In this document: positions 207 through 16,080 of the stretch, in pieces
How positions within the stretch are numbered: position 1 is the stretch's first letter
Layout: every line of letters begins with the position of its first letter
NCBI GenBank assembly: GCA_947627465.1
Contig: CANQWD010000029.1
Coordinates: 1-33,900 of the forward strand
From: an uncultured Clostridia bacterium
GTDB taxonomy: Bacteria; Bacillota; Clostridia; Oscillospirales; Ruminococcaceae
DNA: 33,900 nt
Direction of reading: 5' to 3'
Notes under the pieces: model-generated
Database searches by the model: none
The model's input: only the letters and a program-made list of their open reading frames with translations
Told to the model about the DNA's origin: nothing
Translations under genes and position numbers: made by a program

Positions 207-542
207 AACAATTGAATTGTCCTTTATAAACCCATGAAGCAGAGATAAAAACGTTCGCAGCCCTCACAGAGAGCGGTCGCCGCTGAGAGTACCGCAGGAA
301 ACGGGGCGTTAAATGGACTGCCGAGGGCGCGATGAAGGCGGCTTGATAAAAGGGGCGCGGGTTTTGTTCGATAAAAACACGCTCCGATTAGCCGCTGTGT
401 ATCCCGCGACGTGTGCGAGCGTTAATCGCAAGGGTATGATAGTACCCGCTGAGAGCGCGTTTTTACGCGAAATAAGGTGGCAACGCGGTGAGTTTTCTCC
501 GTCCTTATTGCAGAATTATTCTGCATTTGGGACGGTTTTTTT
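207..542 (+). promoter_or_regulatory. T-box leader (tRNA-Trp sensing) of the trp operon
   Basis: The leader between the promoter and trpE has the layout of a T-box riboswitch. A long GC-rich Stem I region is followed by the conserved T-box core AAGGTGGCAACGCGG (474-488) and an intrinsic terminator (499-542). The likely specifier is TGG at 314-316, the tryptophan codon, followed by the usual purine. In the core, the bulge reads TGGC; its last base C would pair with a G discriminator base, which tRNA-Trp carries. Uncharged tRNA-Trp should stabilise the antiterminator and switch on trpEGDCFBA. The class is seen directly; the exact specifier position is inferred from layout. Confidence 0.85.
499..542 (+). 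terminator. T-box regulatory terminator upstream of trpE
   Basis: CCGTCC (499-504) pairs with GGACGG (530-535), with an inner palindrome GCAGAATTATTCTGC (510-524), followed by a run of seven T (536-542). The 5' arm lies right after the T-box core, so terminator and antiterminator can compete. It sits 30 bases before the trpE start. Confidence 0.78.
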
Positions 543-571
543 GTACAAAAAAAGAAAACGAGGTGTTTATC

Positions 572-2050
572 ATGCTGTCGCCGACATTGGAACAGGCGCG
601 AAATCTGCAGGACTTCAACATTATCCCGATAAAACGCGAGTTTTTATCGGACTTCATCACTCCGATCGAAGTCCTGCGCAAGCTGCAAAACGCAAGCCGC
701 AACGTCTACATACTGGAATCCGTGGAAAATCAGGAGAAATGGGGACGCTACACGTTTCTCGGCTACGAGCCGAAGCTGGAGATCTCCTGCATAAACGGCG
801 TCACGACCGTGAAAGACGTGCGTAACGGAGACGTTAAAGTCTGCCAAACCTCTCACCCCGCCGACTACATCAGAGAACTGATGAGCCGTTTAAAATCGCC
901 GAAACTCGAGGGCTTTCCGAGCTTCACGGGCGGCTTGGTGGGTTATTTCAGCTACGACTACATAAAATACAGCGAACCCGAACTTAGGCTTGACGCGCTT
1001 GACGAGGAAAACTTCAAAGACGTTGATCTAATGCTGTTTGACAAGGTGATCGCGTTTGACAACATTCATCAGAAAATCATTCTCATAGCTAATATTTCTA
1101 CAGAAAACTTGGATAAAGAGTACAAAAAAGCCGAAGAAGAATTGTGCAAAACAGAGAAATTGATCCGTGACGGCAAGCCTGCCGCGCCAATGCCCGCGAA
1201 ACTTAAAAGCGAGTTTCGGCACTTGTTTGAAAAGGACGCGTTCTGCGAAATGGTCGACAAAGCGAAAAGGTATATACGCGAGGGCGACATTTTTCAGGTG
1301 GTGCTGTCAAACCGCCTCGACGCGGACTTCGAGGGCAGTCTGCTGGACGTTTACAGAACGCTCAGATCCACCAACCCATCGCCGTATATGTTCTACTTTT
1401 CAAGCGGCGATATGGAAGTCGCGGGCGCGTCTCCGGAAACGCTCGTGAAGCTTGAGGACGGCATTCTGAACACGTTCCCGATAGCGGGAAGCCGTCCGCG
1501 CGGCAAAACCGAGGAGGAGGACAAAGCGCTTGAAGCGGAGCTTCGCGTCGACGAAAAAGAGCTTTCCGAACACAATATGCTTGTGGACTTAGGACGAAAC
1601 GATTTGGGAAAAATTTCGGAATTCGGCTCGGTCGAGATCGTAAAATATATGGAAATACTGCGGTTTTCGCACATCATGCATATATGTTCGACGGTGAAAA
1701 GCAAGCTGAAAAACGGCTGCGACGCGCTTGACGCGGTAAATGCCGTACTGCCCGCAGGCACGCTCTCGGGCGCGCCGAAGATACGCGCGTGCGAGATAAT
1801 CAACGAGCTTGAAAACAACAAGCGCGGAATTTACGGCGGCGCGATAGGCTATATCGGCTTCAACGGCGGTCTTGACACCTGTATCGGCATTCGGCTGTGC
1901 TACAAGAAAAACGGGCGCGTGTTCGTCCGCGCGGGCGCGGGCATTGTCGCCGACAGCGTTCCCGATCGCGAGTTCACCGAGTGCGTAAACAAGGCAAAAG
2001 CGGTCGTAAACGCGCTCCGCGGCTTTTCGGAAAAGGGGGCGGAGTTATGA
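572..2050 (+). CDS. trpE: anthranilate synthase component I
   Basis: 492 residues, normal for TrpE. It converts chorismate, with ammonia delivered by TrpG, to anthranilate, the first committed step of tryptophan synthesis. The N-terminal half carries ILES at residues 47-50, matching the LLES motif of the tryptophan feedback site. The C-terminal chorismate-binding domain has the hallmark stretches GTLSGAPKIRACEII and GGAIGYIGFNGGLDTCI. I chose ATG 572 because it follows AACGAGGTG at good distance; the frame is open further upstream but that would lie inside the T-box terminator. The stop overlaps the trpG start as ATGA, so the two subunits are probably made by coupled translation. Confidence 0.97.
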   Translation: MLSPTLEQARNLQDFNIIPIKREFLSDFITPIEVLRKLQNASRNVYILESVENQEKWGRYTFLGYEPKLEISCINGVTTVKDVRNGDVKVCQTSHPADYIRELMSRLKSPKLEGFPSFTGGLVGYFSYDYIKYSEPELRLDALDEENFKDVDLMLFDKVIAFDNIHQKIILIANISTENLDKEYKKAEEELCKTEKLIRDGKPAAPMPAKLKSEFRHLFEKDAFCEMVDKAKRYIREGDIFQVVLSNRLDADFEGSLLDVYRTLRSTNPSPYMFYFSSGDMEVAGASPETLVKLEDGILNTFPIAGSRPRGKTEEEDKALEAELRVDEKELSEHNMLVDLGRNDLGKISEFGSVEIVKYMEILRFSHIMHICSTVKSKLKNGCDALDAVNAVLPAGTLSGAPKIRACEIINELENNKRGIYGGAIGYIGFNGGLDTCIGIRLCYKKNGRVFVRAGAGIVADSVPDREFTECVNKAKAVVNALRGFSEKGAEL

Positions 2051-2616
2051 TACTTTTGATAGATAATTACGACAGCTTTTCTTACAACATTTATCAGGTT
2101 ATCGGCTCGATAAATCCCGATATAAAGGTAGTTCGCAACGATGAGCTGACTGTTCCGCAAATTTCGAAACTTTCGCCCTCGCACATAATTTTAAGCCCAG
2201 GTCCCGGCAGACCGAGCGGCGCGGGCGTCTGCGAGGACGTTATCCGCGAAATGGCGGGGAAAATCCCGATCTTGGGGATATGCTTGGGACATCAAGCGAT
2301 CTGCGAAACATTCGGCGCGAAAATCACATATGCCAAACAGCTTATGCACGGCAAAAAATCTACGATAACGTTTGACGAAAACTCGCCGATCTTCCGAGGT
2401 TTAAGCGGAAAATTCGAGGTCGCGCGGTACCACTCGCTGGCGGCTTCCGATGAAAATTTTCCAAGTGAACTGAAGATCACCGCGCGAACCTCGGACGGCG
2501 AGATCATGGCGGCGGAACACAGAAAATTTCCCGTTTTCGGACTGCAATTTCACCCGGAAAGCATTCTCACTCAAAACGGCAAAAAAATCGTTGAAAATTT
2601 TCTTGCGATACGGTGA
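2047..2616 (+). CDS. trpG: anthranilate synthase component II, glutamine amidotransferase
   Basis: 189 residues, a stand-alone class I glutamine amidotransferase that feeds ammonia to TrpE. The catalytic triad is visible: Cys79 in GICLGHQ, His169 and Glu171 in FHPES; the oxyanion-type SPGPG motif is at about residues 50-54. Starts inside the trpE stop (ATGA). Stand-alone TrpG can be shared with folate synthesis as PabA in some Firmicutes, but the location argues for the trp role. It is followed by an unusually long gap before trpD. Confidence 0.96.
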   Translation: MILLIDNYDSFSYNIYQVIGSINPDIKVVRNDELTVPQISKLSPSHIILSPGPGRPSGAGVCEDVIREMAGKIPILGICLGHQAICETFGAKITYAKQLMHGKKSTITFDENSPIFRGLSGKFEVARYHSLAASDENFPSELKITARTSDGEIMAAEHRKFPVFGLQFHPESILTQNGKKIVENFLAIR

Positions 2617-3007: not shown

Positions 3008-4018
3008 ATGATAAAAGAAGCTATCACAAAACTTACAAACGGCGAGCATTTGACATACTCGGAAGCGGAGGAAGTGACCCGCGAAATTATGACGGGAAAC
3101 GCATCTCCCGCGCGGACCGCGGCATATCTGACTGCCATGCACATAAACGGCGAAAACGTTGACGAGGTATCTGCGAGCGCTTATGTTATGCGCGACTGCG
3201 CCGAGCGCGTATTCTATGACAGCGACATTATGGAGATCGTCGGCACGGGCGGCGACGGAGCGCAGTCCATTAACGTTTCCACGATCTCGGGGATCGTCTG
3301 CGCGGCGGCGGGCGCTAAGATCGCCAAGCACGGCAACCGCGCCGCGTCCTCGAAATGCGGCGCGGCTGACTGTCTCGAAGCCCTCGGCGTAAACATTTCT
3401 ACGTCTCCGGAAGGCTGCGTGCAGCTGCTCAACGAGGTGGGAATATGCTTTATGTTCGCCCAAGCGTACCACTCGGCTATGAAATATGTCGGTCCCGTGC
3501 GCCGTGATATCGGCATTCCGACTGTGTTTAATCTGTTAGGTCCGCTTACCAATCCCGCGCACGCAAATTTACAGCTGCTCGGCGTTTACAAAAAGGAGCT
3601 GCTCGAACCAATGGCGAAGTCGCTTGTTAAGCTTGGTGTTAAGCGCGGAATGGCTGTTTACGGGCAAGACAGGCTCGACGAGATCTCGGTCGGCGCTCCG
3701 ACTTCCGTTATCGAATTTGAGGGCGGCAACTTCACCGAATACGAGATTACGCCCGAGCAATTCGGTTTACAGCGTCACGATGTTTCCGAGCTTAGGGGCG
3801 GCGAACCCGCTCTCAACGCACAGCTTGCCCGCAATATTCTTGACGGTGAAAAGGGTGCGGGGCGCGATTCCGTTTTACTCAACGCAGGCGCGGCGCTACA
3901 CATTTACATGAACATTTCCATTGCCGACGGCATCATGCTCGCCGCCGACGCCATTGACAGCGGCAAAGCCGCTAAAACTCTTGCGCAATACATCGCCGTC
4001 TCCCGAAGCGTTGAGTAA
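3008..4018 (+). CDS. trpD: anthranilate phosphoribosyltransferase
   Basis: 336 residues, typical length. It transfers phosphoribose from PRPP to anthranilate. The PRPP-binding glycine loop GTGGDGAQSINVST lies around residues 79-92, followed by KHGNRAASSKCGAAD and the stretch GPVRRDIGIPTVFNLLGPLT, all diagnostic of the family. ATG 3008 follows CGGAGGTATTATT. Unlike trpE-trpG and trpC-trpF it is not overlapped by its neighbours: long gaps lie on both sides (391 and 281 bases), the second holding a multi-arm palindrome. Confidence 0.97.
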   Translation: MIKEAITKLTNGEHLTYSEAEEVTREIMTGNASPARTAAYLTAMHINGENVDEVSASAYVMRDCAERVFYDSDIMEIVGTGGDGAQSINVSTISGIVCAAAGAKIAKHGNRAASSKCGAADCLEALGVNISTSPEGCVQLLNEVGICFMFAQAYHSAMKYVGPVRRDIGIPTVFNLLGPLTNPAHANLQLLGVYKKELLEPMAKSLVKLGVKRGMAVYGQDRLDEISVGAPTSVIEFEGGNFTEYEITPEQFGLQRHDVSELRGGEPALNAQLARNILDGEKGAGRDSVLLNAGAALHIYMNISIADGIMLAADAIDSGKAAKTLAQYIAVSRSVE

Positions 4019-4299: not shown

Positions 4300-5082
4300 A
4301 TGATTTTAGATGAGATCGCGGCAAAAACGCGCGAACGCGTAGCCGCATTAAAAGAGGACGTTTCGCTTGAGGAGCTTCAAGCGCGGGCGAAATGCTTTTC
4401 AAGTCACACGGGATTTCCGTTTCTGAATGCGATTCAAAAAGACGATGTTGCATTTATTTGTGAAGTGAAAAAGGCAAGCCCCTCAAAGGGCGTTATCGCC
4501 GAGGATTTTCCGTATCTTCAAATAGCAAAGGACTACGAGAAAGCGGGCGCTGCGGCGATCTCCTGCCTTACCGAGCCGTACTGGTTTCAAGGGAGCAATA
4601 AATATCTTCGAGAGATCGTGAAAAACATGAATATTCCCGTTCTGCGAAAGGATTTCACGGTGGACGAGTACATGATCTACGAAGCAAGGATACTCGGCGC
4701 GTCGGCGGTGCTGTTGATATGCTCGATTTTAAGCGAGGAGCAGCTTTCGGAGTATCTGGAACTGGCGCACTCGCTCGGGCTTTCCGCGCTTGTGGAAGCG
4801 CATAACGAAGCGGAAATTGAAACGGCTGTGAAAATCGGCGCGAAAATAATCGGCGTGAACAACCGCGACCTGAAAACATTCAGCGTGGACACGGAAAATG
4901 CCGCGCGATTGCGCGATCTGGTGCCGCGCGACCGCGTTTTCGTGTCCGAAAGCGGAATAAAAACCGCCGAGGACGTTCACAATCTGCGGAAAATCGGCGC
5001 AAACGCCGCTCTTATTGGCGAGACGCTTATGCGAGCCGACGATAAGAAAGCCAAACTCGACGAACTGCGGGGGCAGAAATGA
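4300..5082 (+). CDS. trpC: indole-3-glycerol phosphate synthase
   Basis: 260 residues, the usual length of a monofunctional TrpC (TIM barrel). It closes the indole ring, turning carboxyphenylamino-deoxyribulose phosphate into indoleglycerol phosphate. Motifs: FICEVKKASPSKGVI with the catalytic lysines near the N-terminus, VLRKDFTVDEYMI, GVNNRDLKTF and FVSESGIKT, then IGETLMR at the phosphate-binding end. ATG 4300 follows GCGAGGTAACTT. The stop overlaps the trpF start as ATGA. Confidence 0.97.
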   Translation: MILDEIAAKTRERVAALKEDVSLEELQARAKCFSSHTGFPFLNAIQKDDVAFICEVKKASPSKGVIAEDFPYLQIAKDYEKAGAAAISCLTEPYWFQGSNKYLREIVKNMNIPVLRKDFTVDEYMIYEARILGASAVLLICSILSEEQLSEYLELAHSLGLSALVEAHNEAEIETAVKIGAKIIGVNNRDLKTFSVDTENAARLRDLVPRDRVFVSESGIKTAEDVHNLRKIGANAALIGETLMRADDKKAKLDELRGQK

Positions 5083-5693
5083 GCGTTAAAATTAAACTCT
5101 GCGGAATGTTTCGTGATTGCGACATTGATTTTGTGAACGAAGCGAAGCCCGATTATATAGGGTTTATCGTTATGTTTCCGAGAAGTCACAGAAATATTGA
5201 TCTTGAAACGGCTCTGCGACTGAAAGCGCGGCTGTCGCCCGACATCGGGAGCGTTGCAGTATCGGTAAACGCGCCGCCCGCCGCTCTCGCGGAGTTCGCC
5301 AAAAGCGGCGCGGCTGATATGTTACAATTGCACGGCTCCGAAAACGCCGATTACATTGCGGAATTGCGGCGTTTAACCGATGTTCCGCTCATCAAAGCTG
5401 TCAAAGTCACGAACGTCGCTGATATTGAGAACGCGAACGCTCTCGACGCGGATTTTCTGCTGTTGGATAGCGGCACGGGTTCGGGAAAAGCGTTCGATCA
5501 CTCGCTTATCGACCGCGCTAAGATAACCAAGCCGTTTTTTCTGGCGGGCGGACTTACTCCCGAAAACGTCCGTGCGGCGGCTCTTGAGGTAAAACCTTAC
5601 GGAGTGGACATGTCGAGCGGCATTGAAACGGATAAGGTAAAAGACCGCGGGAAGATACTCGCAGCGGTAAGGGCGGTGCGCAATGGACTGTGA
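5079..5693 (+). CDS. trpF: phosphoribosylanthranilate isomerase
   Basis: 204 residues, normal for TrpF (TIM barrel). It performs the Amadori rearrangement between the TrpD and TrpC steps. Visible: KLCGMF with the catalytic cysteine near the N-terminus, DYIGFIVMFPRSHRNI, MLQLHGSE, LLLDSGTGSGKAFD containing the catalytic aspartate, FLAGGLTPENV and GVDMSSGIE. The MF after KLCG and the VMFPRSHRN stretch are slightly divergent from common versions, but all key residues stand. Starts by ATGA overlap with trpC; its last 11 bases overlap the start of the broken methyltransferase gene. Confidence 0.95.
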   Translation: MSVKIKLCGMFRDCDIDFVNEAKPDYIGFIVMFPRSHRNIDLETALRLKARLSPDIGSVAVSVNAPPAALAEFAKSGAADMLQLHGSENADYIAELRRLTDVPLIKAVKVTNVADIENANALDADFLLLDSGTGSGKAFDHSLIDRAKITKPFFLAGGLTPENVRAAALEVKPYGVDMSSGIETDKVKDRGKILAAVRAVRNGL

Positions 5694-5932
5694 AAAGGTG
5701 CGAAAGCACTTTAACGCGGCTTCAAGATCCGAATGGGAGCGTCTTGACGCCGACGAATATCATCGGCTTATCTATCGGCTGCACCTTGATTTTATCAAGA
5801 CCGAGCTTTCCGCCGCTCCGCGGATACCGGACGCGGGGTGCGGCTCGGGACGGTACGCTGTGGAATTCGCGCGGCGCGGCTGTGCTGTCACGCTCTGCGA
5901 CATATCGGACGGAGAACTTTCGTTTGCCGCTG

Positions 5933-6025
5933 ATACTAATTCCAAATCAACGTATAGATTTGATTTGCTGTTCCACACCCGTCATCACGTCAAATTTCGT
6001 CCACGCTTTGAATGGGAATTAGTAT
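5933..6025. mobile_element. MITE, family A (ends ATACTAATT), copy 1
   Basis: 93 bases with an 11-bp perfect terminal inverted repeat: ATACTAATTCC (5933-5943) and GGAATTAGTAT (6015-6025). Outermost AT on both sides is likely the duplicated target, since removing 91 bases restores the methyltransferase frame. It has no coding capacity. A second copy of similar length is at 33241-33334, sharing the ends and the internal CAA-TATAGA-like segment next to the left end. Confidence 0.88.
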
Positions 6026-6086
6026 GAGAAGCTCCGCGAAAGCGGGCTGTCCGCCGAGGGATTTATCCGAGCGGACTTACGGAACT

Positions 6087-6187
6087 TATAGCAATCCACG
6101 AAAATAACGCTGCGGTTCAATTAAACGTTATTATGCGAGAAGGGACTTAAAAGCACTAATGTTGCTTTAATTGTGTGGATTGCTATA
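6087..6187. mobile_element. MITE, family B (ends TATAGCAATCC), copy 1
   Basis: Terminal inverted repeats TTATAGCAATCCAC (6086-6099) and GTGGATTGCTATAA (6175-6188) are perfect over 14 bases. The element is 97 bases (6089-6185) flanked by TA on both sides, which looks like a TA target duplication as made by IS630/Tc1-mariner-type transposases. Removing 99 bases restores the methyltransferase frame. The element introduces a TAG at its left edge. A second copy lies at 13661-13762. Confidence 0.88.
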
Positions 6188-6708
6188 AGCATGTTTTCCG
6201 ACGAGAGCTTCGACCTCACAGTGTGTTATGGCGCGCCGCTCTCCTACATCACAGAAAACCGCGAAAAAGCGCTTTCGGAGCTTGTCCGCGTAACAAGGCG
6301 CGGCGGCACGGCGGCTTTCAGCGTAAACAACACATGGGGAATACTGCGGAATGCTCTTGGGAAAATGAAGGAAGACCTCTTCGCAAACGGCGATTTTTGG
6401 CGCATTGACGAGGTTATCGAAACGGGCGACTGTCCGTCTTTCGAGAGCGTCAAATTCGGCGGCGAAACCTCGCCCGAAAAGCATTTCTTTAAGCCCGCCG
6501 AGCTATCCGATCTGCTTGAAAACGCGGGACTTTCGGATATCGCGCTTGGAGCCGCGCCCTGCCTGTGCTCGGGAAACTCCGTGCAATATAACAAACTCGC
6601 CGAAAATCCTGCGGCAAAAGCGCGGACAGAAGCGTTATAACTGAAATGCTGCAGCGATGAAACTATGCTCGGTTTCGGAGAATTTCTGCTCGCAAAGGGA
6701 GTAAAAAA

Positions 6709-7242
6709 ATGATCTACTATATAGCGGACTTACATTTGGGACACGAAAGAGTTATACAATTCAGCGACCGTCCGTTTTCGAGCCTTGAGGAAATGGACAA
6801 AATATTGATCGCGAATTGGCGCGCAGTCGTGCGCCCCGAGGACGAGGTGTATATACTCGGCGATTTGATCTACAAAGCCGAAAGCCCGGAAGCGTATCTG
6901 AAACAGCTCACGGGACGGCTTCATCTCATTAAGGGAAATCACGATACTTATATTAAAAAGCCGGAGTGTCAAAAGTATTTTGAAAGTATTGACGACGCGA
7001 AACAAATCGCCGACGACGGGCGGCGCGTATTTATGTCGCACTACCCTCACGCGGAATGGCCGGGATACTACCGTAACGCCATTCATCTTTTCGGACATAT
7101 TCACAACCGCGAAAACGACGCGTATCACATTATGCAAACGCTTCCGCGAAACTACAACGTCGGCGCGGACGTTATCGGTTACACGCCGCGGACGCTCAAT
7201 GAAATAATCTCCATATTCGGAGAACGGCGGCTGTCCGAATAA
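6709..7242 (+). CDS. calcineurin-like metallophosphoesterase
   Basis: 177 residues. The metal-binding motifs of the family are all present in order: DLH (Asp7, His9), GD at 51-52, GNHD at 76-79, His110 in MSHYPH and GHIH at 128-131. It is therefore a small two-metal phosphoesterase, cytoplasmic, with no signal peptide. The substrate cannot be told; small relatives act on nucleotides or phosphodiesters. ATG 6709 follows AAGGGAGTAAAA and overlaps the original stop of the broken methyltransferase gene as ATGA, showing that the two were once coupled. Confidence 0.9.
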   Translation: MIYYIADLHLGHERVIQFSDRPFSSLEEMDKILIANWRAVVRPEDEVYILGDLIYKAESPEAYLKQLTGRLHLIKGNHDTYIKKPECQKYFESIDDAKQIADDGRRVFMSHYPHAEWPGYYRNAIHLFGHIHNRENDAYHIMQTLPRNYNVGADVIGYTPRTLNEIISIFGERRLSE

Positions 7243-7428
7243 CTTATTCGCATATTCCCGCTTCACGGCACGATACGCGATATCAAGGCAATTAGGCATG
7301 AATATAATCAATAAAGCCGAACAGCCCGTTACGCCTTACGAAAACCTCTGAAAACCTGTTTTGTTTGGCTCTGCGACCCGCTCCGCGAAGCCGATGCCGA
7401 ATAATCGCAGTTTTTAGAAGCGCCCTTA

Positions 7429-7541
7429 TGTTTTTGTGAAAAACGAGAGCGCGGCTTTACAAGCGGCTGGGGTTTGAAATTGCAGAAACTGTCGAGAAAA
7501 CACGCTATAAAATGATCAGGGAAGTGAAATTATATGTTTGA
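7429..7541 (+). pseudogene. remnant of a GNAT acetyltransferase gene
   Basis: The 291-bp gap 7243-7533 has no intact gene. In its right part one frame reads VFVKNESAAL and a shifted frame continues LYKRLGFEIAETVEKTRYKM, ending IREVK and TGA at 7539-7541. This resembles the C-terminal strand-helix of GNAT acetyltransferases (N-x-x-A-x-x-LY-x-x-x-GF). It is a frameshifted, truncated tail overlapping the start of the intact GNAT gene. No start or acetyl-CoA motif remains. The left part of the gap shows nothing recognisable. Confidence 0.55.
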
Positions 7542-7962
7542 AATAACTGATTGTAACGAAAAAGACATTGACCGTATATACGACGGTTTGGTAAAAAGCA
7601 TTTTTGAAAGCGTACCCGAACTTCAAAAAAACAAACATTTCAAAATACACAAGAAAATCGCCGACGAAAACGGCACGGTTATCGCGGGCTGCATTGCCGA
7701 GGGGTATTGGTGGAATGCGGTGTACGTTGATTCGCTTTGGGTGGACGAACGTTACAGAAACCGCGGTTTGGGTTCGGCGCTGCTTTGCGAGGTTGAGAAA
7801 ATAGCCGCGCAAAACGGCTGCAATATCGTGCATTTGGACACGTTCGATTTTCAAGCCAAAGACTTCTATATAAAGCGCGGATATGAGATTTTCGGAACGC
7901 TTGAAAACTCTCCCGAGGGGCATTGCAGATACTATTTGAAAAAAGCACTTATACAACCATAG
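7534..7962 (+). CDS. GNAT family N-acetyltransferase
   Basis: 142 residues, one GNAT domain. The acetyl-CoA pyrophosphate-binding motif is RNRGLG at residues 75-80, preceded by the VYVDSLWV strand and followed by a helix; near the end FYIKRGYEIFGTLE is the typical terminal strand pair. The acceptor substrate is unknown. ATG 7534 follows CAGGGAAGTGAAATT. It directly follows a decayed GNAT remnant, suggesting turnover of such genes at this site. Confidence 0.88.
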   Translation: MFEITDCNEKDIDRIYDGLVKSIFESVPELQKNKHFKIHKKIADENGTVIAGCIAEGYWWNAVYVDSLWVDERYRNRGLGSALLCEVEKIAAQNGCNIVHLDTFDFQAKDFYIKRGYEIFGTLENSPEGHCRYYLKKALIQP

Positions 7963-8021
7963 GTAAAGAGATTTTTGTTCAATATAAATTCGGCATTCAC
8001 GTAAAATGACGGGAGGTCAAA

Positions 8022-8663
8022 ATGGCATTTGGAGATGAAATATTGCGGCTGTTCAAGGTTGAAAAGCCCGTCGGCTATACCGCCGAGGAAGTCGAGAAAG
8101 CGAAGTCGGCGGTAGGCGGTCTGCTGCCGCTTGAATTGGAAAGATTTTATCTTTACTGCGGAAAATCTCCGGAAATTCGCAGCTTACAGGACGAGTTTAT
8201 TCTGCCGAACCGTTATTCGGCATTTCTTAAACTCGACTACATAGTATTCTTCAACGAAAACCAAGGAGTCTGCCAAGCGGCGGTCAAAAAGTCGGACGCG
8301 GCGCTTGACGACCCGCCCGTGTATGCGAGCGTTGGCGACAATTGGCGGCTGTCCTCGCCGCGATTTTCGGAATTTATACGCGCGATGTATGATTATCAGG
8401 CGAGTATATGTCTTGATTTCAGCCCCGAGGAATTTTATTTTATAACAGCCGAGGAAAAAAAGAAAATCGAAAGTCTGTTTCCGAAGCTCGGAGAATTCGA
8501 CAACTGGCTTTACGATTTTAAAATCACGGTGTTCGGAGAGAACGGCGGACGCATCGCGCTTATGGAGAACGGCGGCGATATTCAAATGAACTACGCCGCG
8601 AACAACGAGGACGAGTTTAAACGAATGACGGCTCTGCTGAAAGGTATCGGCGAGCCGATGTGA
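8022..8663 (+). CDS. SUKH (SMI1/KNR4-like) family protein
   Basis: 213 residues, soluble, no signal peptide. The N-terminal segment YTAEEVEKAKSAVG followed by LPLELERFYLYCG matches the start of SUKH domains, and an acidic, aromatic-rich body follows (DNWRLSSPRFSEFIRAM). SUKH proteins are best known as immunity proteins to polymorphic toxins, but many solitary ones have unknown roles. No toxin gene is visible here. RBS GACGGGAGG lies before ATG 8022. The call rests on the pattern of conserved positions, so it is moderate. Confidence 0.65.
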   Translation: MAFGDEILRLFKVEKPVGYTAEEVEKAKSAVGGLLPLELERFYLYCGKSPEIRSLQDEFILPNRYSAFLKLDYIVFFNENQGVCQAAVKKSDAALDDPPVYASVGDNWRLSSPRFSEFIRAMYDYQASICLDFSPEEFYFITAEEKKKIESLFPKLGEFDNWLYDFKITVFGENGGRIALMENGGDIQMNYAANNEDEFKRMTALLKGIGEPM

Positions 8664-8680
8664 ACGATCGAGGAGGAAAA

Positions 8681-9421
8681 ATGTCAAAACGTGACGACAA
8701 CATAAAACACGCCGCCGCTCACATCAAGGAGATGGACGAGCGGTTCGGCAAGAAAATCAAAAACTCAATCGAAAACTCCGTGATTTACGGCGGGAGCGGA
8801 AAAACGCCGCAAAAAAGCGCGGAAAACGTCCAAACAGAGATGATTGTACTGAACGTTGATTCCACCGAAGCGGCGCTGCGATACCCCAACTCGGCGCTGC
8901 TGAATTTCGCGTCGTACAGACACGCGGGCGGCGGGTTCGTTACGGGAGCTTGGGCGCAGGAGGAGGCTATCTGCCACGACTCCACGCTGTACAACGTGCT
9001 GCGCCGCTTTGAAAACTTCTACGAAGAAAACGAGAAAACGCTCAACCGCTCGCTGTACACCGACAGGGCGATATTCTCCCCCGACATTGTTTTCGAGCGT
9101 GACGGAAAAACCGCCGAGTGTTCCGTTATCACCTGCGCCGCGCCCAATTTCGGAGCCGCGCGGGGTCGCGGAATAACTCAATCAGAAAACGAGAACGCTT
9201 TGGCCGGGCGGGTCGATTTTGTGATAAGCATTGCCGAGGAACAAAACGTAGAAACCTTGATACTCGGCGCTTGGGGCTGCGGAGTGTTCGGGCAAGACCC
9301 CGCGGTCGTGGCAAGGCTGTTTAAAGAGCGGTTGGAGAAAAGTTCTCTGAAGCGCGCGGTGTTTGCCATTCCGGGTAATAACCGAAATTACGCTGAATTT
9401 GAAAAAACATATCGGAATTAA
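8681..9421 (+). CDS. TIGR02452 / microbial PARG-like protein
   Basis: 246 residues from ATG 8681, chosen because GAGGAGG lies just before it. The central part NFASYRHAGGGFVTGAWAQE holds the PARG signature: GGG at 83-85 followed by QEE at 93-95, the catalytic glutamates of poly(ADP-ribose) glycohydrolases of the macrodomain superfamily. Further on TCAAPNF and LGAWGCGVFG are family-typical. The expected activity is hydrolysis of ADP-ribose polymers or ADP-ribosyl conjugates. Next to SUKH and DUF4253 genes it could neutralise an ADP-ribosylating toxin, but that is inference. Confidence 0.88.
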   Translation: MSKRDDNIKHAAAHIKEMDERFGKKIKNSIENSVIYGGSGKTPQKSAENVQTEMIVLNVDSTEAALRYPNSALLNFASYRHAGGGFVTGAWAQEEAICHDSTLYNVLRRFENFYEENEKTLNRSLYTDRAIFSPDIVFERDGKTAECSVITCAAPNFGAARGRGITQSENENALAGRVDFVISIAEEQNVETLILGAWGCGVFGQDPAVVARLFKERLEKSSLKRAVFAIPGNNRNYAEFEKTYRN

Positions 9422-9436
9422 CGGGAGGAAAACAGA

Positions 9437-10213
9437 ATGGCTAAACCGCCTATCAGAATAAGTTCTATGGAATTGTTCGGGTGCGAAGCGCTGAGGTTGG
9501 ACAACGATCCGAACATTGACGAATTAACGGAGTTTTACCTTACCGAACGTCAAAAAGGTGCGGAAAACGGCTTTTCGCCGATAATTCTTGCGCTCGACAG
9601 GCGTGTTCGGTGGATGATCGAAAGCAACGTTTCAAAATACGGTTCCGCCGAGAAGCTGCGCGAAGAGGTGTTCGCCGACAGCGCGGGCGGCAGAGAGCTT
9701 TTACAGCGCGGTTTTGAAGATTTGAAGAAACAATCTGCCGCCTACGGCGAAGAAGATACGCTTGCCGAGGACGATGAAACGCTCGATCAGTATCTCAAAA
9801 CGGGGGGCGGCGTTAAACAGACAGAGCTGTGGTCTGTGAGCGAATGCGCGGAGCAAATTTTAAACGACCACGACACCGACGGCAACGGCGTTTATCTCGT
9901 TAGAGTGCCCGCCGCCGAGCCTTGGAAAGCGGCGGCTTGGCTGCCGTTCTGCGGATTTAACGAATGCCCGCCGGTCTCCGAAATGATAAAGATATGCAGG
10001 TTTTGGTTTGAGAAATACGGAGCGGCTCCCGCGTTTATTTCGGGAGACATAATGCAGTTTTGGCTGGACAAACCGATCTCGGACAGGAAAACCGCACGTG
10101 AGATCTCTCATCAGCACGCGGTTTTCTGCGAGGAATTTCTCGCGGAGAGCGGACTTGATTCACAGACCGCAGATATTATGACATCAAACGTTTGGTCGTT
10201 TTGGTGGGATTGA
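9437..10213 (+). CDS. DUF4253 domain protein
   Basis: 258 residues. The C-terminal half resembles DUF4253: AAWLPFCGFNECPP around residues 166-179, then FWFEKYGAAPAFISGDIMQF and a final helical stretch AVFCEEFLAESG. The N-terminal 120 residues are acidic and helical and not recognised. No signal peptide. DUF4253 is often found in lists of possible immunity proteins and near SUKH genes; its biochemistry is not known to me. RBS ACGGGAGG precedes ATG 9437. Confidence 0.68.
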   Translation: MAKPPIRISSMELFGCEALRLDNDPNIDELTEFYLTERQKGAENGFSPIILALDRRVRWMIESNVSKYGSAEKLREEVFADSAGGRELLQRGFEDLKKQSAAYGEEDTLAEDDETLDQYLKTGGGVKQTELWSVSECAEQILNDHDTDGNGVYLVRVPAAEPWKAAAWLPFCGFNECPPVSEMIKICRFWFEKYGAAPAFISGDIMQFWLDKPISDRKTAREISHQHAVFCEEFLAESGLDSQTADIMTSNVWSFWWD

Positions 10214-10237
10214 ATACATTTATTGGGAGGAAAAGAA

Positions 10238-10777
10238 ATGGCTAAAGCAATCAAAGTGCCGAATTTAGAGGAAATGCGGGAATACTTAAAAAATTTTAAA
10301 GCCGACCCCATTCACAACCGCATAAACGACGCGGATCACGCGGCTATGCACAAGGAAATGACTATCAGGATATTCTCCGTGGATATGACAGACGATGTGA
10401 AAGTCACGGCGTGGAAGTTCTGCAAGACCTTGGCGAATTTCGCACACGCGCCGGTGTCTCCCGCCGAATACAAGAGAATGGAGAAATGGCTTCCCGAAAC
10501 GGGGCTTATCGACGCGCTTCTCAAAGCGTGCGATGACTATTATCCCGACCCCGCATTCAAATACGATTTCGATACGATAGGTTTTTCGTACTCGATAGCG
10601 CTTATCTCGCAGTCGCAATACAAGAGAGCGGACTGTCTTGCTCTGCTGGACAAAATAACTCAATATTATGTGAATACCAAAGACGATTGGTACACGGTGC
10701 TTTTGCGGAATATGACAAAGCTTTGCAAGACGTTCCCCGACCTGACGGGATTTAAAACCGCTCTTGAAAGCATTTAA
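10238..10777 (+). CDS. hypothetical protein, 179 aa
   Basis: I chose ATG 10238 because it follows GGGAGGAAAAGAA; the frame opens 15 bases earlier with TTG, but that start would lie inside the ribosome binding site. The product is soluble and probably all-helical, with conserved-looking aromatic clusters (DDYYPDPAFKYDFDTIGFSY). Low similarity to anything I recognise. Its spacing to the flanking genes suggests co-transcription with the DUF4253 gene and the 94-aa gene. It may belong with the immunity-like genes upstream, but nothing in it proves this. Confidence 0.75.
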   Translation: MAKAIKVPNLEEMREYLKNFKADPIHNRINDADHAAMHKEMTIRIFSVDMTDDVKVTAWKFCKTLANFAHAPVSPAEYKRMEKWLPETGLIDALLKACDDYYPDPAFKYDFDTIGFSYSIALISQSQYKRADCLALLDKITQYYVNTKDDWYTVLLRNMTKLCKTFPDLTGFKTALESI

Positions 10778-10795
10778 GAAAGGAAGGTTCGGTAT

Positions 10796-11080
10796 ATGAA
10801 AAATATCCAAAACTATACCGCCCCAAAATACGAGGGCGAGGCTTACGTGTCCGTTGAGGACGGAATTTACAAAACCGAAACGGAAAACGGCACGATTTAT
10901 GTTACCGCGCTCGGGTTTGACAAAAAGAGCGATATATGCTTGGAGGATATTCTGGACGCTTACAGAGTTTACATCTCCGATTTCTTTAAAGAACAGGACG
11001 CGAAAAGCGGGTTCACTTTTTTGGAGTTCGCGAGCGAAAATATAGCGGATATAAGAGCATTACGCGGCATTTTGAATTAA
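10796..11080 (+). CDS. hypothetical protein, 94 aa
   Basis: Small acidic soluble protein with a beta-rich N-terminal half (AYVSVEDGIYKTETENGTIY) and a helical C-terminal half (DILDAYRVYISDFFKEQDAK). RBS AAGGAAGG lies before ATG 10796. Not recognised. It sits 18 bases after the preceding gene and 10 before the flavoprotein gene, so it is part of the same transcript. Confidence 0.7.
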   Translation: MKNIQNYTAPKYEGEAYVSVEDGIYKTETENGTIYVTALGFDKKSDICLEDILDAYRVYISDFFKEQDAKSGFTFLEFASENIADIRALRGILN

Positions 11081-11090
11081 GGAGAGCAAT

Positions 11091-11645
11091 ATGGGAAAGA
11101 AACTATTGTTGGTAAATTGCAGCCCCGTAAGAAACGGCGCGACCGCCGAAATAGTCAAACTCGCCGCCGAGTATCTGGACGGCGCAGGCGAGATAAAAAG
11201 CGTTTGCATTGACGACTACGACATTAAATTCTGCAGGGGCTGCCGCGCTTGTCACAAAACGGCGAAGTGCGTTCAAAGCGACGATACGTTAAAACTTATG
11301 GGCGAATTCGATCGGGCAGACGTTATCGTCTGCGTTTCGCCGTCATATTGGGCGGACGTTCCCGGGCAGTTTAAAGCGTTTATAGACAGATGCACGCCGT
11401 GGAGCAACACTCACGAGCCGCACGCGGTTATCGGCAAGGGCAAAAAGGGCTACGCGATCGCCTTGCGGACGGGTCCCAATATGCGCGAATGTGAACGTAT
11501 TATCGAAACCATAGAGCATTTCTACGGACATCTTGAAATAACCCAAAGCGGACATCTCGGGCTATGCTCGATTGAATATAAAGAAAACGTCGCGGACAGA
11601 GTAGATGAAATTCGAGCATTCTGCGATAAAATAATTTCAGATTAA
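11091..11645 (+). CDS. flavodoxin-like NADPH-dependent FMN reductase
   Basis: 184 residues. The N-terminal strand and phosphate loop LLVNCSPVRNGATAEI bind FMN phosphate. CRGCRACHKTAKC around residues 46-60 is the cysteine-rich segment seen in the iron-sulfur-flavoprotein-like branch of this family. SPSYWADVPGQFKAFIDR contacts the flavin ring. It likely reduces small molecules such as quinones or metals using NAD(P)H. Preceded by GGAGAG. It ends 15 bases before trpB, so it is transcribed with trpBA though unrelated to tryptophan synthesis. Confidence 0.88.
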   Translation: MGKKLLLVNCSPVRNGATAEIVKLAAEYLDGAGEIKSVCIDDYDIKFCRGCRACHKTAKCVQSDDTLKLMGEFDRADVIVCVSPSYWADVPGQFKAFIDRCTPWSNTHEPHAVIGKGKKGYAIALRTGPNMRECERIIETIEHFYGHLEITQSGHLGLCSIEYKENVADRVDEIRAFCDKIISD

Positions 11646-11660
11646 AGGAAAGGATAAAAA

Positions 11661-12851
11661 ATGGCTAATTCAAAAGGACGTTACGGCGATTTCGGCGGAC
11701 AGTATATCCCCGAAACGCTGATGAACGAAATTCACAAGCTGGAGGACGCTTACGAGCACTACTCCAAAGACCCCGAGTTTATCGCGGAGCTTGACAGGCT
11801 CAACCGCGAGTACGCGGGCAGACCGTCTTTGCTCTACTACGCGGAGAAAATGACAAAAGATCTCGGCGGCGCGAAAATCTACTTTAAGCGCGAGGATTTG
11901 AACCACACCGGCTCGCACAAAATAAACAATGTGCTCGGGCAATGTCTGCTTGCGAAGAAAATGGGAAAAACACGCATTATCGCGGAGACGGGCGCGGGTC
12001 AGCACGGAGTTGCGGCGGCTACCGCGGCGGCTCTTATGGGGCTGGAATGCGAGATCTTTATGGGCAAAGAGGACACAGTTCGTCAAGCTCTCAACGTTTA
12101 CAGAATGGAGCTTCTCGGCGCAAAGGTAAACCCCGTTACCACGGGCACAATGACGCTGAAAGACGCGGTAAACGAAGCTATGCGCGACTGGACTTCACGC
12201 GTGGACGATACGCTGTACGTGCTCGGCTCGGTTATGGGTCCGCACCCGTTCCCGATGATAGTGCGCGATTTCCAGAGCGTTATCTCCAAGGAAGCGCGGG
12301 AACAAATTCTCGAAAAAGAGGGCAGGCTCCCGACCGCCGTTATGGCTTGCGTGGGCGGCGGCTCCAATGCTATGGGCATGTTTTACAACTTCATAAACGA
12401 CAAGGACGTGCGGCTTATCGGCTGCGAAGCGGCGGGGCGCGGCGTCGACACGGGCGAGACTGCGGCGACTATCGCAACGGGAACGCTCGGTGTGTTCCAC
12501 GGAATGAAGTCGCTGTTTTGTCAGAATGAATACGGGCAGATCGCTCCCGTGTACTCCATTTCGGCGGGGCTGGATTATCCCGGAATAGGTCCGGAGCACG
12601 CTTATTTACACGAAATAGGCAGAGCCGAATATGTTCCCGTGACGGACGAAGAAGCGGTGAACGCGTTTGAATATATCGCGAAAACAGAGGGCATTATCTG
12701 CGCTATCGAGAGCGCTCACGCCGTGGCGCATTTGATGAAGATCGCGCCGGCTATGAGTAAAGACGACATCATTATCTGCTGTCTGTCGGGGCGCGGCGAC
12801 AAGGACGTGGCGGCTATAGCGAGATATAGGGGGATAGATCTTCATGAGTAA
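11661..12851 (+). CDS. trpB: tryptophan synthase beta chain
   Basis: 396 residues, normal for TrpB1. The PLP-dependent subunit condenses indole with serine. The PLP lysine lies in [43 protein letters not shown]-like [12 protein letters not shown] (phosphate-binding glycine loop) and CLSGRGDKD near the C-terminus are hallmarks. Begins [16 protein letters not shown], typical of the N-terminal region. ATG 11661 follows AAAGGAAAGGATAAAAA. Overlaps the trpA start by 8 bases, as usual for the pair. Confidence 0.98.
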
Positions 12852-13623
12852 CAGAATAGCTAAGGCATTTGAAAACAAAAAAGCGTTCGTGGGCTTTCTC
12901 ACCGCGGGAGACCCTGCGTTCGACGCGTCTTACGATAACATTATGGCGCTTATCAACGCGGGCGCGGATCTGGTTGAAATAGGTATACCGTTTTCCGACC
13001 CTATCGCCGAGGGTCCCGTCATTCAAGGCGCGGACGTTCGTGCGCTTAAAGGCGGAATGACTACCGACCGCGCGTTTGAATTGGCGGCTAAGGTGCGCTC
13101 TCAAACCGATATTCCGCTGGTATTTATGACTTACTTAAATCCCGTGTTTAAGTACGGGTACGACAGGTTTTTCGGAAAATGCGCCGAGATCGGCGTGGAC
13201 GGGCTTATCTGCCCCGATATGCCGTTTGAGGAGAAGCAAGAGGCGGACGGCATTGCGAGATCGCACGGCGTTTCGATAATTTCTATGATAGCGCCGACCT
13301 CCGAGGAGCGCATTAAGGCTATCGCGGAAAACGCGGAGGGATTTTTGTACATTGTTTCTTCATTGGGCGTTACGGGCGTTCGCAGCGAGATAAAAACCGA
13401 CCTTTCGGCGATTATGGAGAGCGTTAAGAAATACTCCAAAGTGCCCGCCGCGATAGGTTTCGGAATTTCCTCGCCCGAACAGGCGAAAAAAATGTCCGCG
13501 CTTGCGGACGGGGTCATTGTCGGTTCGGCTTTGGTGCGCTTAGTCGAAAAATTCGGCGAGAATGCCGCGCCCGAGATAGGAAAACTCGCCAAAGCCCTCG
13601 CGGACGCAGCTCACGGGGCTTAA
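12844..13623 (+). CDS. trpA: tryptophan synthase alpha chain
   Basis: 259 residues, TIM barrel. It cleaves indoleglycerol phosphate to indole, which is channelled to TrpB. Catalytic Glu in [20 protein letters not shown] and Asp in [18 protein letters not shown] is the flexible loop, and GFGISSPEQ and GVIVGSALV bind phosphate. Start overlaps the trpB stop. Last gene of the trp operon; a MITE and a terminator-like palindrome follow. Confidence 0.97.
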
Positions 13624-13660: not shown

Positions 13661-13762
13661 TATAGCAATCCACGAAAAGTTCGCACAATATTGAAGCAGC
13701 TTTTTCCAAGATCACGCTGCATTTTAGGACTGATTTGTGCTTTAATTGTGCGGATTGCTATA
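13661..13762. mobile_element. MITE, family B, copy 2
   Basis: Ends TATAGCAATCC and GGATTGCTATA flank about 100 bases after the trpA stop, with TA on both sides. The left 18 bases (through CACGAAAA) and the right end TGCTTTAATTGTG-C/T-GGATTGCTATA match the copy at 6087-6187, while the middle has diverged. No coding capacity. It lies between trpA and its likely terminator, so it is transcribed in the trp message. Confidence 0.87.
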
Positions 13763-14844: not shown

Positions 14845-16080
14845 TCAGAAACCGAAAAGTCGGTTTTCATAACGCTCGAACGCGTATTCCAAAGCGTCTA
14901 AGCTGTCGATATTCGACGTTCCGTTGTCAAGTCTTACGTCCTTGTGAAGCTGCCGCTCGTCCCAGACGGCATTTTGCAGCGCTTCGATAACGTGAACGCA
15001 ATCTTCCGCGACGTAAAAACGCTTTGCCGCGATAAGCCGATTGAGCATATTTATTCGCGTATTGATCGGCTTCTTCAAGGCATTTTTGACTTCAACTCCG
15101 TATTTTCCCACCGCTTGACGAAAGCTCTTTATCAAAAGCTGCTCGGCGCTGTCGCAATAGGCGGTTTGAAGCGGCGGTATCTTCGATTTACTGTCCAATG
15201 TGAACGCCTCGAAATTTTTGATAAGGTTTTCGGCGGAACGGTTTCGCTTATCATAATACTCCGAAAGAACGTAAAGATTGCGAAATCCCGCGTCTATTCC
15301 TATCAAAACAAACGCCGAAGCGCTGCCGTTTCCGCCGTAATCCACGCCTATCGCCGCCGTTATCAGCTTGTTTTCCGAAAGACGTTCTTTAAGCTCCGCG
15401 CGGGCGATTATGTTATCCAAGGAAAAGCTCTCGTAAACTCTGCCCTCGGCGGCTACCCATTTGCCGAGTATGTAACGGTCGTAGAAAACGCCGCGGAACT
15501 CGTTTTTTAGCGATTTTACGTACTCCGCGGGCAAAAAGACGTTATCTTCAAGCGAAAACTTTATCGACAGCAGATCGATGTTTTTATTGTCGAGATATCG
15601 CCGCTTTACCCAATGCGAGGGGTTGTCGGGATTGGTAGTCGCGAAAAGCTTCGCGCCATATTCCGAAAGTCTTGACAAGAGCATTACGAAATAATCCTCG
15701 CCGAAAAGCGTAAGCTCGTCGCAATACGCGCCCATAAGCGTCATTCCGCGTATCTTGCTTTCCGCTTCGGCGTTTGCCGCGCCCTCCAAATAGATTTTTC
15801 TGCCGAACAGAGTTCCCTCTTTTTTGCTTACGCTGTAATCAAAGCTGTCGCCGAGCAAGGCTTTAAGCGGCTCGAGAACGTTGCGTTTCAGCGTCGTGAG
15901 CGTTTTGCCGCACATCAGGTACGCTTTTTCCTTCGGCGACTGCGCGGTCCAAAACGCCCACATTATCATGGAAACATAAGTCTTTCCGCTGCGCACGCTG
16001 CCCTCGAAAATGTTCAAGCGGCGCAATTCTCCGTTCTTCAGCAGAAGCATTGCTTCTTCTTGTTTGGGTGAAAAGGTCAT
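14845..16080 (-). CDS. phage terminase large subunit (PBSX-like)
   Basis: 411 residues, normal for TerL of the Terminase_3/XtmB type. The ATPase half has Walker A GSVRSGKT (27-34), Walker B with DE at 121-122 (MGAYCDE) and the coupling motif FATTNPDNPSHW. The nuclease half starts with AIGVDYGGNGSASAF (metal-binding Asp247) and continues to DSLDALEYAFERY. All catalytic motifs look intact. In phages it packages DNA into capsids. Here no portal, capsid or tail gene is adjacent; the only partner is the small gene whose end overlaps its start (ATGA). Confidence 0.92.
   Translation of the reverse strand: MTFSPKQEEAMLLLKNGELRRLNIFEGSVRSGKTYVSMIMWAFWTAQSPKEKAYLMCGKTLTTLKRNVLEPLKALLGDSFDYSVSKKEGTLFGRKIYLEGAANAEAESKIRGMTLMGAYCDELTLFGEDYFVMLLSRLSEYGAKLFATTNPDNPSHWVKRRYLDNKNIDLLSIKFSLEDNVFLPAEYVKSLKNEFRGVFYDRYILGKWVAAEGRVYESFSLDNIIARAELKERLSENKLITAAIGVDYGGNGSASAFVLIGIDAGFRNLYVLSEYYDKRNRSAENLIKNFEAFTLDSKSKIPPLQTAYCDSAEQLLIKSFRQAVGKYGVEVKNALKKPINTRINMLNRLIAAKRFYVAEDCVHVIEALQNAVWDERQLHKDVRLDNGTSNIDSLDALEYAFERYENRLFGF

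Follow-up and report, generated by a model that had tools for sequence, protein, structure and literature searches.

A methyltransferase pseudogene in the trp operon of an uncultured Clostridia bacterium, interrupted by two unrelated MITEs and a nonsense codon

Between trpF and a metallophosphoesterase gene of an uncultured Clostridia bacterium lies a methyltransferase-like sequence that is split into three pieces and contains a premature stop codon, raising the question of what broke this gene, when it was broken, and whether it may still be used. The window analysed here is a 33,900-nt stretch (contig C29) of a 2,522,101-base MAG that comprises 52 contigs and is 97.35% complete (hereafter G000), and it was compared with 42 other genomes of the genus, one genome per species (43 genomes including G000). 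The trp genes of the window were named from their Pfam domains and gene order (Table 1), and all relatives that carry this methyltransferase gene are MAGs. We regard it as very likely that an accessory methyltransferase gene was broken fairly recently by two MITE insertions and a Glu-to-stop mutation.

Table 1. Coordinates of the genes, pseudogene parts and inserted elements in the window
Feature	Position	Strand	Remarks
trpE	488-2050		Pfam domain and gene order
trpG	1897-2616		Pfam domain and gene order
trpD	3008-4018		Pfam domain and gene order
trpC	4300-5082		Pfam domain and gene order
trpF (phosphoribosylanthranilate isomerase)	5079-5693	+	Intact; PF00697, E 2e-34
Pseudogene, 5' part	5683-5933	+	Codons 1-83 and two bases of codon 84; matches intact relatives
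Left TGA target duplication of element 1	5931-5933	.	3 bp
Element 1 (MITE)	5934-6024	+	91 bp; inverted ends TACTAATTCC/GGAATTAGTA
Right TGA target duplication of element 1	6025-6027	.	3 bp
Pseudogene, middle part	6028-6088	+	20 codons from 6029; colinear with residues 85-104 of relatives
TA duplications flanking element 2	6087-6088 and 6186-6187		
Element 2 (MITE)	6089-6185	+	97 bp; inverted ends TAGCAATCCAC/GTGGATTGCTA
Pseudogene, 3' part	6188-6709	+	174 codons, residues 105-278 of relatives
Original stop codon TGA	6710-6712	+	Within ATGA; overlaps the ATG (6709) of the next gene
Metallophosphoesterase gene	6709-7242	+	Intact; PF12850/PF00149
trpB	11661-12851		Pfam domain and gene order
trpA	12844-13623		Pfam domain and gene order

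The interrupted reading frame and its intact orthologues

The ATG of the methyltransferase gene (5683) is overlapped by the trpF stop codon. As it stands, the ORF from this ATG spans 5683-6027 and encodes 114 aa, with the right TGA duplication of element 1 serving as its stop codon. The insertion of element 1 added 94 bases (91 + 3) and that of element 2 added 99 bases (97 + 2); subtraction of these 193 bases from the 1,030 bases between 5683 and 6712 leaves a colinear length of 837 bases, i.e. 278 codons and a stop codon. The same number of codons from the ATG is found in three relatives (G014, G020, and G021), and the protein of a fourth (G042) aligns over 278 residues. The initial annotation of this DNA had proposed, from the letters alone, a single frame from ATG 5683 that is cut at 5934 and 6089 by two unrelated MITEs. 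Both proposals hold: the pieces are colinear with the intact relatives, and the two insertions have inverted ends, flanking duplications, and repeat families of their own, the ends and duplications differing between them. Of the lengths that it gave for each element plus one target copy, 99 bases is correct for element 2, whereas 91 bases for element 1 must be replaced by 94; its reconstructed gene of 840 bases and 279 codons, in which the joint keeps the frame, is one codon too long.

After the third lesion, a nonsense TAA codon at 6638-6640 inside the 3' part, a further 23 codons continue in frame; they match the relatives and end at the TGA within ATGA, in agreement with the conserved C-terminus previously suggested for this region. 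The sequence AAAGGGAG just before this TGA is the likely ribosome site of the phosphoesterase gene.

A full-length orthologue was found in 4 of the 42 other genomes (G014, G020, G021, and G042), in each case as a 282-aa stop-to-stop frame, with 86% (G014), 83% (G042), and 79% (G021) identity to the G020 protein; in the same search, the window yielded two pieces and one TAA. Matches in other genomes of the genus are weak (best E 1.4e-13) and resemble other methyltransferases, and a genome of the same order outside the genus (G028) contains a homologue that is 42% identical to the last pseudogene piece. In all four carriers, the intact orthologue is located directly 3' of trpF. The DNA of the window aligns with that of G014, G020, and G021 through both joints, and these genomes have GAA or GAG at the site of the TAA; in G042, the protein blocks align with the window without gaps, and Glu is present at this site. 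Both checks proposed in the initial annotation, namely an intact homologue with sequence across the two joints and a sense codon at the TAA, and empty insertion sites in related genomes, thus gave positive results, all in other species. Because the elements belong to repeat families and the orthologues run uninterrupted through both joints, a chance arrangement is excluded. With several disabling lesions here and intact orthologues in the same place elsewhere, the locus was classified as a pseudogene, from which no functional methyltransferase would be made.

Its sequence places the intact protein among the class I SAM methyltransferases of the Methyltransf_25/11 type, and the fold class is clear. 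The G020 protein shares the PF13649 domain with these enzymes (E 7.9e-19; 68.6 bits compared with a Pfam cut-off of 27), and the closest solved chain, identified with a four-sequence profile, is 2avn_A (E 2.7e-19). Among the 25 best NCBIfam models listed for it, however, every score falls far short of the curated cut-off. The first and last pieces of the pseudogene each match Methyltransf_25/11, the first one partially. The 5' part contains SAM-binding motif I, and an L49P replacement just before this glycine-rich motif is a possible further lesion. Of 204 residues on which the four relatives are unanimous, 31 are different in the window, one being the stop codon and one L49P.

The two element families

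Both elements are short, are bounded by terminal inverted repeats, occur in multiple copies, and are flanked by target-site duplications, as is characteristic of MITEs, and they are unrelated to one another, sharing neither their ends nor the type of duplication (TNA and TA, respectively). The families are present in only one (element 1) and two (element 2) of the 42 other genomes, and neither element has a match in any of the four intact carriers. Matches were counted at E <= 0.001, including the window copy and partial matches.

Element 1 has eight matches in G000, seven in G024, and none in the other 41 of the 43 genomes. An exact 3-bp duplication of the TNA form (TAA, TTA, or TGA) flanks 6 of the 10 copies that have both ends in G000 and G024, one of the six being a 101-bp variant; the four copies lacking it are all in G024. 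The nearest other copy is 94.5% identical to the window copy, which deviates at 9 of 92 columns from a consensus built on 10 others, two of these differences being private. Groups of the IS5 family (IS1031 type) duplicate TNA, and element 1 resembles them in the length and form of its duplication. Across G000, G024, and G056, 15 DDE_Tnp_1 matches were found, and none of the retrieved loci has paired TACTAATTCC ends nearby.

Element 2 has 13 matches in G000, 5 in G024, 19 in G056, and none in the other 40 genomes. TA is present on both sides of 23 of 33 family copies (counting a sister subfamily with the same ends) and an exact duplication is absent from the other 10; once the ends were loosened, the count was 26 of 36. 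The nearest other copy shows 94.8% identity, and 7 of 98 columns differ from the consensus of 27 others, one difference being private. Element 2 duplicates TA, as do IS630/Tc1-mariner-derived MITEs, but the one DDE_3 match in G000 (G000:C38) is flanked by other inverted ends (ACTAGTGTAC...). There are two DDE_3 matches across G000, G024, and G056, neither flanked by element-2 ends, and a search for paired ends of either element around the PF13358 (DDE_3) and PF01609 (DDE_Tnp_1) loci retrieved from these three genomes detected none, only scattered single near-matches. In a search with the end patterns, the paired ends were mostly ~100 bp apart; by eye, pairs ~160 bp (G000:C1) and ~420 bp (G024:C30) apart were also seen, which are too short to contain a transposase and were rejected as autonomous parents.

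Prokaryotic MITEs are normally intergenic, as stated in section 3.3 of PMC10969869, and insertion within the methyltransferase gene is in keeping with its being expendable. Other short, multi-copy elements bounded by inverted repeats are described in PMC10969869, for example Chunjie-1 of Geobacter uraniireducens and the Correia elements of Neisseria; they lie mostly between genes and occasionally disrupt one, as in the gene hit here. The present elements differ from these in host and ends, and also in that two unrelated families were inserted into one gene, which carries a nonsense mutation as well. Neither element family was named in the titles and abstract openings of the open-access literature retrieved with the terms used, and the titles listed for the end letters of element 2 were unrelated to bacterial elements.

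Of 36 copies of the element-2 type that have both ends in G000, G024, and G056, 17 have on one side, within 45 nt, an open frame with a ribosome site and start codon; for random points in the window, the figure is 296 of 4,000. None of the 17 is a copy from the window. In several copies, flanking bases extend the right end to a full TATAAT. An outward promoter formed by the right end and the flank (TATAAG/TATAAT) was considered for element 2 and was rejected, as a sigma-70 scan of 5600-7300 gave no sites against 1.5 expected. An estimate of the rate at which copies interrupt genes, obtained from open frames over joined flanks of 200-400 bp, was too noisy and was set aside. A second element-2-type copy, flanked by TA and sharing the same ends with a different interior, is located at 13663-13760, just past trpA. 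At another locus of G000 (L022, G000:C4:9295-9574), a family-2 element appears by eye to be interrupted by a third element, the ends of which resemble those of a transposase-bearing element at locus L114.

Timing of the loss and competing explanations

The closest relative is G056, in which TrpF is 91% identical to that of the window. Only ~85 bases separate trpF from the phosphoesterase gene in this genome, and they hold a relic of the methyltransferase gene (L043, G056:C102:2310-5918) that consists of 17 codons, a TGA at codon 18 (TGG in the window), a further 8 codons, and a large deletion. The deletion ends just short of the likely ribosome site of the phosphoesterase gene, and the last bases before the phosphoesterase ATG, including AAAGGGAG, are retained. 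The gene is thus broken in both G000 and G056, with different lesions.

A dead copy at the same place in both genomes, together with the 19 family-2 matches in G056, speaks for death of the gene already in their common ancestor, the visible lesions representing later decay. However, there is no demonstrable common lesion: the codon that is TGA in G056 is still TGG in the window, and the positions of the window's lesions fall within the part that G056 has deleted. Substitution patterns also argue against ancestral death. Of 277 third positions in the TrpC, TrpF, and phosphoesterase genes, 37 have changed in the window lineage alone since the split from G056, and a gene dead since that split would show an excess of changes at positions 1 and 2 of that order. 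Among first and second positions that are identical in the four relatives, 48 of 462 are changed in the methyltransferase of the window and 87 of 774 in its TrpC and TrpF, giving an excess of -0.9 points (bootstrap 95%, -4.3 to +2.8). The absence of an excess, with an upper bound of +2.8 points, suggests that death occurred late in the window lineage, and we consider an ancestral death very improbable. Pairwise dN/dS of the window pieces with the four relatives is 0.14-0.18; the relatives compared with one another give 0.13-0.23, and TrpC and TrpF give 0.07-0.20, although many of these dS values are near saturation. Most likely, the methyltransferase was under selection until late in the window lineage, and the loss in G056 was a separate one.

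The recent date proposed for the insertions in the initial annotation is upheld mainly by the lack of this excess and secondarily by the few private differences of the window copies (2 of 92 columns in element 1 and 1 of 98 in element 2), which fit a fairly recent insertion but give no date. It also called the gene a useful marker of MITE activity, which fairly describes a modest use.

The absence of relaxed substitution could mean that the gene is still in use. It might then act as a switch, with one or both elements precisely lost from the DNA of some members of the population, or skipped in the RNA, so that the gene sometimes works; the trp-operon methyltransferase would in that case be a switchable gene. 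Such a switch would account for coding constraint without relaxation and for a frame that is exact over both joints, but exact colinearity is expected from any simple insertion with target duplication, the TAA and the L49P beside motif I are left unexplained, the closest species has deleted most of the gene, and no transposase with the element ends was found among the DDE_3 and DDE_Tnp_1 families of the three genomes. We therefore hold a switch to be highly improbable. Equally improbable is an artefact in which the assembler fused repeat copies with a unique gene: the draft does comprise 52 contigs, one of which (C17) ends within a family-1 copy, but both insertions carry duplications of the local bases that are of their family's type, the flanks are colinear with the relatives, and common sequencing read lengths exceed the lengths of the elements.

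Under the favoured explanation of recent breakage, a class I SAM methyltransferase gene would have been an accessory lodged between trpF and the remaining trp operon and would have become dispensable in the window lineage. Two unrelated non-autonomous transposons, one duplicating TNA and the other TA, would have been inserted independently, both probably moved by a transposase acting in trans, and a Glu-to-stop mutation would have arisen before, between, or after these insertions. Relaxed selection may have been the cause of the loss. The flanking trpF and phosphoesterase genes remain intact and constrained; dN/dS of the latter is 0.083 between the window and G056. The case is one of ordinary pseudogenisation, well resolved and unusually readable, and the MITE families are of a known kind. 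It provides a clean gene death in uncultured Clostridia, in which both element families are seen with their duplications and the empty sites are given exactly by intact congeners, and the separate loss in the nearest species adds to its value.

The trpF-trpB interval

TrpF matches were found in 35 of the 43 genomes (counting G000), 30 of which were taken into a TrpC + TrpF tree. In this tree, G000 joins G056 and the four intact carriers form a separate clade (support 97). Non-carriers are placed between the two carrier clades, so that vertical descent of the methyltransferase is indicated rather than proven. The ratio of methyltransferase to TrpF synonymous distances is about equal within and between the clades, which suggests an old presence and repeated loss of the gene rather than a recent transfer.

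In the window, a gap of 5,971 bp separates trpF from trpB (5691-11660), and in other genomes this gap varies from 29 bp (G055 and G012) to 4,337 bp (G021). The survey covered 20 stretches from other genomes, chosen for long contigs, and trpB was reached in 19 of them. The genes carried in the interval also vary; besides this methyltransferase and the phosphoesterase, they encode an acetyltransferase, a flavin reductase, a PARG-like protein, and a putative alpha/beta hydrolase. The interval is therefore a variable accessory-gene slot in this genus, and the pseudogene is one event in its turnover; a wider pattern is indicated in which accessory enzymes enter and leave the slot and the trp genes persist. 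This slot, too, was not named in the titles and abstract openings retrieved from the open-access literature with the terms used.

At three loci (L045 in G041, L046 in G011, and L047 in G024), a different gene follows trpF, and its translation reads as methyltransferase- or acetyltransferase-like. Downstream of trpA in the window, a gene for a phage terminase large subunit is located on the opposite strand (14845-16080), perhaps as part of a prophage.
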